Source: Magnetococcales bacterium
GTDB lineage: Bacteria; Pseudomonadota; Magnetococcia; Magnetococcales; UBA8363
DNA length: 37,584 nt
Reading direction: 5' to 3'
Assembly (NCBI GenBank): GCA_015660855.1
Contig: JACSDG010000019.1
Coordinates: 1-37,584 of the forward strand
This document shows positions 6,314 through 31,396 of this stretch, piece by piece. Below the pieces are notes generated by a model. That model did not search any database and had not been told where the DNA came from. It saw only the letters and a list, made by a program, of their open reading frames with translations. Position 1 is the stretch's first letter, and the number at the start of each line of letters is the position of its first letter. The position numbers and the translations under genes were made by a program.

Positions 6314-6408
6314 GATGCCCTGCGGGCATAAAGTCAAAATCAAAACCCTGGGGCTGCGCCCCTAGACCCCCCTTGGGGGGCAGTAAAATCAAAATCAAAG
6401 TCAAAGCC
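6314..6408. repeat. Dispersed intergenic repeat, copy A
   Basis: It starts with the imperfect palindrome TGCCCTGCGGGCA, followed by an A-rich stretch (repeats of CAAAATC/CAAAACC), GGGGCTGCGCCCC, and a CCCCCCTTGGGGGG palindrome. About 75 bases of this match almost exactly the interior of the MITE at 29458-29743. It occupies most of the gap between the diguanylate cyclase gene and rpiB. Confidence 0.8.
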
Positions 6409-8282: not shown

Positions 8283-8322
8283 TGCCCTGCGGGCATAAAA
8301 TCAAAACCAAAACCTTGGGTGC
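8283..8322. repeat. Dispersed intergenic repeat, copy B
   Basis: TGCCCTGCGGGCA followed by TAAAATCAAAACCAAAACC and CTTGGG. This is the same left module as copy A, in the 8222-8495 gap between the second propeller gene and the diguanylate cyclase gene. Confidence 0.7.
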
Positions 8323-12343: not shown

Positions 12344-12664
12344 GAGGTACCTCCTTCCAAAGATTGATTTACCGAAAAAAAACCAACCAGCCCCACACAT
12401 CTCCCCTTTGGCCTTCTCGAAGGTGGGAGTGGCATAAAAAGCCGTACCCAAAACATTTTTTACCCGGGCATCCCGGTCACGGCAAACCTTTCACTCACCC
12501 TGCGGCAGCGAGGATACCCCATTTTTAAACTTCCCGCACCCGAACATCATGCCCTGCGAGCAAAAACCAAAACCCTGTGGGCTGCCGCCTCCAAACCCAA
12601 GCCGGGGGGATGCTCCCCCCCGAACCTCCACAAAATTTTTCCTAACTTCGACTTTTCAATACGT
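12344..12664. repeat. Intergenic region with dispersed repeat, copy C
   Basis: This 320-base gap separates the response-regulator stop from the Sel1 operon. The part 12548-12650 carries the repeat family: ATGCCCTGCGAGCA, CAAAAACCAAAACCC, a GGCTGCCGCCTCCAAACC block, and a GGGGGGATGCTCCCCCC hairpin that matches the right half of the MITE. The remainder (12344-12547) should hold the operon promoter. I found no convincing -24/-12 or -35/-10 pair there. Confidence 0.6.
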
Positions 12665-28296: not shown

Positions 28297-29433
28297 ATGC
28301 CCCAGGACGTACACGCCATACAACCTTTTTTCAGAAACTCCGGGCGTCTGGACCTCTATGCCTTGGAGTCTTTCGCCAATGAACACAGTGAACAGGAATT
28401 TGTCCGCCTGCTTCAAGTGCCTGTGCTGATGGGCAACGAGGTGTTGCAAGGGGAATTGTCTTCCCGTTCCGGGGATGCCAGCACATTTTTCCCCACGGAT
28501 CCCAGTATCAACAAACGCCCAATACAATCACGCCCCCCCCTGATGCACCTGATTTTTCCCTTCATCAAACAAACATCGACCGGAAACCCCGATTTTTTTT
28601 CCATCGGATTCGGTGAAAACAATGATTTCATCTTGCCCGATTATACCGTGTCCACAGTCCAGGCAGGCATTCGCCGTACCGGTGCCAATCGCTATCTGCT
28701 ACGCAACGCACCATCGACCAATCCCACCCTGATCAATGGCCGCAGCCATGAAAAAACCGAAGTATTTCTTCACGACGATGATCGTCTGACCTTTGGCCGC
28801 TATGAATTCCTGTTCCTAACCCCAAGTGCACTTTACTACCGTCTCAAGGGGATAGAACTCAAGGTACGCATTCAAAATTTTTTGGATTCTCTCGGAAAAG
28901 CCGACCATGACGCCCTTAAAAATTACGCCATCCGGCATGGGCAGGAAATGTTCGAGCAACTCATCGCCAACCCCAGCCTGGTGGGCTTTGGATTGTTTCG
29001 CGGGTATTCACTGGATCGAGCCTCTGAAGACATCGACACCACCATGGCCTTCCTTCCTGACCTCACTTTTGGTTCCGAAGCCAGGCACATGAAAATGTTG
29101 GAACGGGCCATTTATCCCCTGATCCCTCCCGATGTCGCAGATGTCTCCACGCCAACCCTGCGCATCGGCCGGTCCGAGTCCAACGACATCATCATGCCAG
29201 AAGGTTCCATTTCCAACCAACACGCCACCATCGAGATACCGGGACCGGGACACTACCGCATCCACGATCTGGAATCGACCAACGGAACCTTTATCAACGA
29301 CAGACCCACCCCTGCACAAGGTCAGGATCTCCTCGACGGCCAACGGATCAAACTGGGACGTTTTGAATTTTTATTTCTTTTTCCAGGATCGCTCTATTTT
29401 CACATGACACCGGCCAACATTCGCCGCCCCTGA
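28297..29433 (+). CDS. Double FHA-domain protein
   Basis: 378 residues, soluble. The C-terminal FHA domain (about 285-365) is canonical: LRIGRSESNDIIM, ISNQHATIEI, LESTNGTFIND, which bind phosphothreonine peptides. An internal domain (about 100-180) is a degenerate FHA: FSIGFGENNDFILPD, then TNPTLINGR and LTFGRYEFLFLTPSALYYRL. That last stretch repeats at the C-terminus as KLGRFEFLFLFPGSLYFHM, showing a duplication. The first ~95 and middle ~100 residues have no recognisable domain. No kinase, phosphatase or secretion gene is adjacent, so the partner is unknown. No good ribosome site precedes the ATG. Confidence 0.85.
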   Translation: MPQDVHAIQPFFRNSGRLDLYALESFANEHSEQEFVRLLQVPVLMGNEVLQGELSSRSGDASTFFPTDPSINKRPIQSRPPLMHLIFPFIKQTSTGNPDFFSIGFGENNDFILPDYTVSTVQAGIRRTGANRYLLRNAPSTNPTLINGRSHEKTEVFLHDDDRLTFGRYEFLFLTPSALYYRLKGIELKVRIQNFLDSLGKADHDALKNYAIRHGQEMFEQLIANPSLVGFGLFRGYSLDRASEDIDTTMAFLPDLTFGSEARHMKMLERAIYPLIPPDVADVSTPTLRIGRSESNDIIMPEGSISNQHATIEIPGPGHYRIHDLESTNGTFINDRPTPAQGQDLLDGQRIKLGRFEFLFLFPGSLYFHMTPANIRRP

Positions 29434-29449
29434 TCCGTCGCATCAGACT

Positions 29450-29457
29450 TCGCGACT
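29450..29457. repeat. Left 8-bp target-site duplication of the MITE
   Basis: TCGCGACT, repeated exactly at 29744-29751 immediately outside the other end of the element. Confidence 0.8.
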
Positions 29458-29743
29458 GTAACCGTTCAGCCCCCCCCCTCTTTTTTTAAGGTTGAAACTT
29501 TATTTTGTCTCAGCATCTTGATAATAAGGACATTATACCCTTCAGGCAAAAGAATCAAAATCAAAACCCTGGGGCTGCGCCCCTAGACCCCCCTTGGGGG
29601 GCAGGAAAATCAAAATCAAAGTCAAAAGAAGAACCTTGGAGGGCTGCTGCCTCCAAACCTCCGCCGGGGGGGATGATCCCCCCCGGACCCCCACAATAGT
29701 TTCAACCTAAAAAAAAAAGAGGGGGGGGGGACTGAATGGTTAC
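29458..29743. mobile_element. 286-bp IS66-like MITE (non-autonomous element)
   Basis: The ends are inverted repeats of about 40 bases. Left reads GTAACCGTTCAGC, nine C, TCTTTTTTT, AAGGTTGAAA. The right end, read inward, is GTAACCATTCAGT, eight or nine C, TC, ten T, AGGTTGAAAA. Exact 8-base direct repeats (TCGCGACT) flank it. Termini beginning GTAA with 8-bp duplications are the hallmark of the IS66 family. There is no transposase gene inside. The interior is made of the window's dispersed repeat modules. It is inserted 15 bases beyond the sppA stop, between sppA and the FHA gene. Confidence 0.82.
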
Positions 29744-29751
29744 TCGCGACT
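29744..29751. repeat. Right 8-bp target-site duplication of the MITE
   Basis: TCGCGACT, identical to 29450-29457. Confidence 0.8.
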
Positions 29752-29758
29752 GGCCCAA

Positions 29759-30802
29759 CTACCGCAACGATCCGTAGCCCGGAATTTGCAGGATGACCTG
29801 GGCAACAGCCTGCGCCAAAGTTTCGGAAAAACGCTTGCCAATACGATCAACCCAACGTTCCTCAAAGGTAAAATCGACCACTTTTTCCGCCTTAACCACT
29901 TCACGGGCAACCCAGTCGGCGGAACCAAAACCATCAACCAATCCCAACTCAATGGCCTCATCGGCTGTCCAAAAAAGCCCCTGGAACAATTCTTTTTTCC
30001 CGGGTTTTAACCGTTCACCACGTCCATCCTTGACCGCTTGAACAAATTGGGCATGGATTCTGTCAAGGAGTCCCTTGGCATGATTGACCTCATCTTCCTG
30101 CATAGGTTTGAAAGGATTAAGAAAGGATTTGTTGCGTCCGGCAGCCAGATTGCGATCTTCAACGCCAACTTTTTCCAAAGCCTTTTCAAAACCAAAATTA
30201 AACATGACAACACCGATGGACCCCACGAGCGAAGCCTTGTCGGCGTAGATATTATCGGCCGCAGCCGCCAGATAATACCCACCCGAAAGGCAGGAATCCT
30301 CCACGGCGGCATGGAGGGGAATCGATGGATATTTTTTGCGCAAACGCTTGATTTCATCGTAGATCTGGCCCGCCTGGACCGGAGAGCCGCCCGGAGAATT
30401 AATCCTGAGAATCACGCCACGGGTCTCGGGATCCTTGAAGGCGGCCTTCAATCCTTTGATTACATTTTCAGCACCTGCCGGGGCACCACCACCAATAGGC
30501 CCCATCACATCCACAACCGCCGTATGCCCTTTTTCTTCGGTCAATGGATGTAACGCCATTTTTTCCCATTCTTGGCTCGCCCCCATCCATCCAAGGAAAA
30601 CCAGGTAACCGACAATAAACAGCCTGAAAAACAACTTCCAACGCCGCGCCCGTCGCTGCTCGCTGAGAAACTGGGCAAACATTTCCTCCAGAACACGCCG
30701 TTCCAACGAGCGTTCCTTTTGCATCTGCTCCAGCAATTCATCGCGAAAAGGTGCTTTCCCAGTGTCCACGGGATCGGAAAGTTCCGGTTCCATTTTGTCC
30801 AT
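29759..30802 (-). CDS. sppA: Signal peptide peptidase SppA-type membrane protease (S49)
   Basis: 347 residues. A ~55-residue cytosolic tail is followed by a TM (LFFRLFIVGYLVFLGWMG, 57-74) and then a periplasmic S49 domain. The oxyanion/substrate motif is RINSPGGSPVQAGQIYDEI. The nucleophile is S173 in DSCLSGGYYLAAAAD and the general base is probably K225 in AGRNKSFLNPF. VGSIGVVMFNFG is also conserved. It degrades cleaved signal peptides or membrane-protein fragments. The length is that of the short, single-domain SppA. The long charged N-terminal extension is a little unusual. It follows the MerR gene by about 60 bases. Confidence 0.92.
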   Translation of the reverse strand: MDKMEPELSDPVDTGKAPFRDELLEQMQKERSLERRVLEEMFAQFLSEQRRARRWKLFFRLFIVGYLVFLGWMGASQEWEKMALHPLTEEKGHTAVVDVMGPIGGGAPAGAENVIKGLKAAFKDPETRGVILRINSPGGSPVQAGQIYDEIKRLRKKYPSIPLHAAVEDSCLSGGYYLAAAADNIYADKASLVGSIGVVMFNFGFEKALEKVGVEDRNLAAGRNKSFLNPFKPMQEDEVNHAKGLLDRIHAQFVQAVKDGRGERLKPGKKELFQGLFWTADEAIELGLVDGFGSADWVAREVVKAEKVVDFTFEERWVDRIGKRFSETLAQAVAQVILQIPGYGSLR

Positions 30803-31367: not shown

Positions 31368-31396
31368 ATGCCCTGCGGGCAAGAACCAAAAAAACT
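31368..31396. repeat. Dispersed intergenic repeat, copy F
   Basis: ATGCCCTGCGGGCAAGAACC followed by an A-rich tail: the repeat head only, in the 31346-31538 gap between prfC and the MerR gene. The rest of the gap shows nothing I can identify. Confidence 0.65.

Follow-up and report, generated by a model that had tools for sequence, protein, structure and literature searches.

A non-autonomous element with IS66-type ends between two convergent genes of a Magnetococcales bacterium

The element and its insertion site

The DNA analysed here (hereafter the window) is a stretch of 37,584 nucleotides from a Magnetococcales bacterium. Towards its right side two intact, convergent genes, for an FHA-domain protein and an SppA-like peptidase, are separated by a spacer that is largely filled by an element of 286 bp, whose limits (29458-29743) were read directly from the sequence. 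The features discussed below are the following.

6334-6405, + strand: hairpin module standing free, with no IS66-type ends (sequence comparison in the window)
28297-29433, + strand: intact gene for an FHA-domain protein, convergent with the next gene (ORF list, domain search)
29450-29457, no strand: left 8-bp target duplication, TCGCGACT, identical to 29744-29751 (read directly)
29458-29499, + strand: left terminal inverted repeat of 42 nt, composed of GTAACCGTTCAG, a C tract, a T tract and GGTTGAAACT (sequence, inverted-repeat search, end alignment)
29500-29697, + strand: interior hairpin array, starting with TTATTTTGTCTCAGCATC; the array is also found free-standing, and comparison of copies suggests a one-sided deletion
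29555-29626, + strand: interior stretch of 72 nt with 99% identity to 6334-6405 (sequence comparison in the window)
29664-29686, + strand: hairpin of the CCGGGGGGG-ATGAT-CCCCCCCGG type; the 125-127 bp minimal forms have this hairpin at their centre (read directly, copy comparison)
29698-29743, - strand: right terminal inverted repeat of 46 nt, GTAACCATTCAG in the minus-strand reading (sequence, inverted-repeat search, end alignment)
29744-29751, no strand: right 8-bp target duplication, TCGCGACT (read directly)
29759-30802, - strand: intact gene for a peptidase of family S49, SppA-like (ORF list, domain search)

An earlier, sequence-only reading had described a 286-base element with inverted ends of about 40 bases, exact duplications outside them and no transposase. 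These observations are confirmed: the ends measure 42 and 46 nt, TCGCGACT is present as 8 bp on each side, and the ORF list of the window has no entry as long as 80 aa within 29458-29743. With no gene inside it, the element is not classed as an IS66 insertion sequence. The two ends can be aligned without gaps over 42 columns, 2 of them mismatched, and differ further by two 2-base indels that fall in the C and T tracts; a separate inverted-repeat search agrees with this alignment. The sequence GTAACCRTTCAG has five matches in the window, exact only at the two element ends and with 2 mismatches at the other three. The element also folds as a single strand far below shuffled sequence (z -7.0, reached by 0 of 200 shuffles).

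Comparison with sister genomes indicates how the spacer looks when the element is absent. SppA orthologues are present in six of seven sister genomes, and in five of these six the FHA gene adjoins SppA in the same arrangement; the 4 kb retrieved for the sixth (G007) gave no FHA gene. The stop-to-stop spacing of the pair is 21-45 bp in the five sister species versus 325 bp here, and subtraction of the element and one duplication from the latter leaves 31 bp. Empty sites in sister strains had been named beforehand as a check on the insertion, and the orthologous site is indeed without the element in all five sister species that keep the FHA-SppA pair, their flanks being too diverged for a base-by-base comparison. 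The accompanying claim of a recent insertion holds only in the sense of 'after these species split', as the two ends have already come to differ by 2 mismatches and 2 indels.

Ends shared with IS66

The termini of the element belong to a large family. In the genome (4.52 Mb in 238 contigs) GTAACCNTTCAG occurs 165 times, compared with 3 times for its reversed control; the A and G forms of the terminus occur 83 and 77 times, with 0 control matches, and a DNA search with the whole element returns 73 matches. Fetching 147 segments (284 kb) covered 163 of the 165 ends. When nearest facing ends no more than 600 bp apart, with no more than 3 mismatches summed over both, were paired, 43 pairs resulted. 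Their 8-bp flanks are identical in 12 cases (two of which are units of one tandem on contig C170), differ by one mismatch in 1 and by two in 1, and differ by three or more in 29, implying great age, recombination or false pairing for many copies. As a null for the 12 identical cases, 1,796 cross-contig pairings of flanks gave no match at 0 or 1 mismatch. Reciprocal recombination between copies was considered as a cause of the missing duplications and is not shown by these data, since those 1,796 pairings include no crosswise match of this kind.

A broader comparison took in all 181 ends of the fetched segments, with G or C accepted as the last base. It identified 19 flank pairs that agree in the way duplications do, whereas shuffling yields 0.24 on average and at most 3, and two controls yield 1 apiece. 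Four of the 19 belong to the C170 tandem, 7 join different contigs and 1 spans 8.8 kb. The number of genomic ends and of duplicated flanks marks the element in the window as a real non-autonomous mobile element. The tandem itself (C170:5839-6061; L065:2840-3062) consists of MITEs of 100 and 115 bp from the CGTCATTCCCGC subfamily described below, with the duplication ATCCAACC present three times. Matches of 8-bp duplications across contigs, such as C112:41850 with C67:4631 and C123:322 with C66:78031, suggest which contigs join; IS66-type MITEs probably break assemblies, and the seven pairs on different contigs mean that the duplications could help to join them.

The earlier reading attributed the termini and the 8-bp duplications to IS66, an assignment now supported by IS66 pieces of the same genome and by a complete element in a sister species. 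The transposase model PF03050 scores 107 bits on contig C223 and also picks up C90, where a decayed IS66 remnant spans GTAACCATTCAGTCTCCCCC to GTAACCGTTCACCCCCC; the same 5' end recurs on C220 and C168, and the 3' end GTAACCGTTCACCCCCC on C223, C35 and C132. A genome search for IS66 with the same termini thus recovered transposase genes with GTAACC(G/A)TTCA ends, all of them contig-end fragments or decayed copies. No intact full-length IS66 is present in the assembly of this genome, in which the middle part was not found, so we can only infer a living source of transposase. Sister genome G006 contains a complete IS66 of 1,737 bp whose two ends both read GTAACTATTCAGCACCCCCC (identical in 20 of 20 bases; GTAACTATTCAG ends). 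Its 8-bp flanks, GGAGGAAG/CGAGGAAG, differ by one mismatch, and its single main ORF (472 aa) carries an IS66 domain. Agreement between MITE and IS66 is limited to about the outer 18-20 bases, and the subterminal 20-40 bases of the element match other MITEs, not IS66. Contig C223 is small and carries, besides the IS66 fragment, an IS91-type transposase gene (Y2_Tnp, Zn_Tnp_IS91; L063:402-1571) close to a hairpin module.

The same termini extend well beyond the genus. A contig scan with GTAACCRTTCAGTCCCCC returned at least 75 loci, a lower bound from which counts are not to be read as rates, mostly in records labelled Sedimenticola, Methylomonas, Crenothrix, Competibacteraceae, Methylococcaceae or plain Pseudomonadota. 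Among the loci listed, 50 candidate end pairs include 21 with exact 8-bp duplications, 57-153 bp in length, and 3 more with one mismatch. The C-terminus of an IS66 transposase lies within about 50 bp of an exact GTAACCRTTCAGTCCCCC terminus in two of the at least 75 loci, in two unrelated genomes. The 12-mer is enriched in six of seven genomes reached through these loci (6 to 57 ends versus 0 to 2 controls); it is not enriched in Methylotuvimicrobium, with 3 ends versus 4 controls. All seven sister species have the ends (4 to 30 each versus 0 to 2 controls). At 16 fetched sister loci, 3 of 12 candidate pairs show exact duplications, all in G004: a form of 227 bp twice and one of 395 bp once, the interior of the latter containing short stretches of the hairpin modules of the window element. 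The two 227-bp copies (L301:410-636 and L302:411-637) represent a different MITE, which again has ends of IS66 type and exact duplications of 8 bp and whose interior contains a CCCTCTCCC palindrome. IS66-type MITEs appear to be common in several environmental genomes as well as in the genus.

Duplications of 8 bp are also produced by other IS families, and the ends could belong to one such transposon family, the link to IS66 being a resemblance. The differing subterminal parts of MITE and IS66, and the small number of foreign loci with a transposase beside the terminus (2 of at least 75), would fit this proposal. Nonetheless, we consider it very unlikely: in this genome GTAACC(G/A)TTCA ends directly border IS66 genes, and in two unrelated genomes such a gene adjoins an exact GTAACCRTTCAGTCCCCC terminus. 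Published IS66 elements, according to the excerpts of the sources consulted, also bear such ends, ISDge4 having GTGACTACTCAGCA/GTAACTGCTCAGCA ends with an 8-bp repeat (PMC12898284) and ISPsy43 showing GTAACCGTCCGGGCA (PMC12888890); 8-bp repeats are likewise given for two IS66 elements of Paracoccus in an excerpt of PMC3281130.

It could also be proposed that a single full IS66 lost its gene at this site, leaving a remnant that has not moved in its present form. The decayed IS66 with both ends on C90 demonstrates that such remnants occur. Here, however, no remnant of a transposase is present in the interior, which recurs in other copies of 125-449 bp with duplications of their own, and the subterminal 20-40 bases resemble those of other MITEs and are unlike IS66. 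In-place decay, already disfavoured on these grounds, has only a slim chance of being correct.

Taken together, the shared IS66 ends, the duplications, the empty sister sites and the occurrence of the same termini on elements of 57-153 bp elsewhere argue that the element is very probably an IS66-type MITE, a non-autonomous element moved by an IS66 transposase made elsewhere in the cell. The same interpretation in the sequence-only reading is thus supported. Under the mechanism we propose, an IS66 transposase supplied in trans would recognise the GTAACC(G/A)TTCAG and C-tract ends, move the element and insert it by an 8-bp staggered cut, producing TCGCGACT on both sides. The landing place would have been the spacer of roughly 31 bp between two convergent genes, so that neither was broken.

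Relation to described elements

Several published systems resemble the element in part, as far as excerpts of the respective papers describe them. ISDge4 (IS66 family, single-ORF ISBst12 group; PMC12898284) is alike in the GTAAC...TTCAG/CTCAGCA type of its ends and in having direct repeats of 8 bp, and its single ORF recalls the G006 element, with its ORF of 472 aa; it differs in encoding its own transposase (449 aa), whereas the element here is 286 bp without one. The Chunjie MITE of Geobacter uraniireducens (PMC10969869) is similar by description, with tens of intergenic copies of variable length, conserved ends and repeats, and partial copies that lack ends. TIMEs, the Tn3-derived miniature elements (PMC4133298), offer a parallel for transposon ends that mobilise other DNA and form mosaic non-autonomous elements, but have Tn3-family ends of 38 bp and duplications of 5-6 bp. 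MITEPye1 of Paracoccus yeei (PMC11578231) is likewise non-autonomous, with IS-like ends, direct repeats, long stem-loops and mostly intergenic positions; its ends are of IS1182 type and it is present in 1-3 copies per chromosome.

Within the accessible text of the open-access literature, no description of an IS66-derived MITE was found; subscription papers and ISfinder lie outside this scope, and we accordingly make no claim to priority. The word IS66 is absent from a 2024 review of prokaryotic MITEs (PMC10969869), the open-access literature yielded no paper joining the IS66 family, non-autonomous and 8 bp, and a search for the end motif in print gave, among the matches listed, titles unrelated to transposons.

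Interior hairpins with and without the ends

The less ordinary side of the element is its modularity, with a middle built from hairpin repeats that the genome also carries outside elements. Interior modules had been said to recur in the window without the ends, and the 99% identity over 72 nt between 29555-29626 and 6334-6405 bears this out. Free-standing intergenic hairpin repeats (GCCCTGCGGGCA... modules) lie at 6316-6405, 8283-8319, 12549-12640 and 31368-31392 of the window; they belong to a genus-wide family and have no IS66-type ends.

The copies with ends range from simple to composite. The simplest are the nearly palindromic copies of C208 (127 bp) and C236 (125 bp), built around a G/C-run hairpin. 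Long forms are found on C201 (449 bp), C177 (438 bp) and C229 (425 bp), each with a pair of hairpin arrays inverted relative to one another. The window copy retains the right array, and its left end is joined directly to TTATTTTGTCTCAGCATC, a sequence that is central in C201 and C229. This comparison suggests that the window copy derives from an inverted dimer of 425-449 bp by deletion on one side. A second subfamily in the genome, mostly 114-117 bp long, has CGTCATTCCCGC hairpins between the same kind of ends.

Given that the interior also stands free in this genome and in sister species and folds strongly, the element could be viewed as mainly a host hairpin repeat, a REP-like or terminator-like unit, with incidental GTAACC ends and duplications. 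We assign this view almost no probability: ends and 8-bp duplications co-occur far beyond chance, the same ends and duplications surround unrelated interiors here and in other genomes, and scans for a host RNA role gave nothing above chance (two Rfam matches, both far below the gathering score, and promoter and terminator predictions near chance).

For the IS66-type MITE, the question then becomes how it acquired this interior. Of 56 long copies, 33 have an IS66-type end, 14 pass through the same hairpins into (T/A)AATTTTTGCCAAACTTTG-like sequence, and 9 are unclassified, including one sister copy and some with degenerate ends. Sister species also carry the hairpins, and none of the sister matches listed covers the 42-nt left end. 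On the tree built from all 56 the classes are intermingled, with 13 changes of the MITE label versus 18.0 when shuffled, at least 3 of them forced by well-supported branches; after removal of the 9 unclassified copies, grouping the 14 free copies into a single clade is still compatible with the data at the 0.05 level (p-AU 0.057). The tree does not decide between MITEs losing their ends to become free hairpins and MITEs capturing host repeats. The mixing of classes, though one clade of free copies is not rejected, makes capture or exchange of host hairpin repeats likely, in either direction and once or more often. The interior of the window copy would accordingly have come from such capture or exchange, followed by the one-sided deletion.

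More generally, we tentatively suggest, as a possibility somewhat short of even, that IS66-type ends repeatedly capture the intergenic hairpin arrays of the genus, palindromic units with conserved boundaries of their own, combine them as inverted dimers and spread them, interiors being traded between host repeat and transposon ends. If true, this would provide a route for REP-like repeats to become mobile. The shared interiors offer a natural case for studying the spread of hairpin repeats that occupy bacterial spacers. A second conserved boundary, AATTTTTGCCAAACTTTGTTTTTCCGATA, terminates free-standing hairpin arrays (L020, L019, L026, L273 and others) and may mark a separate repeat family.
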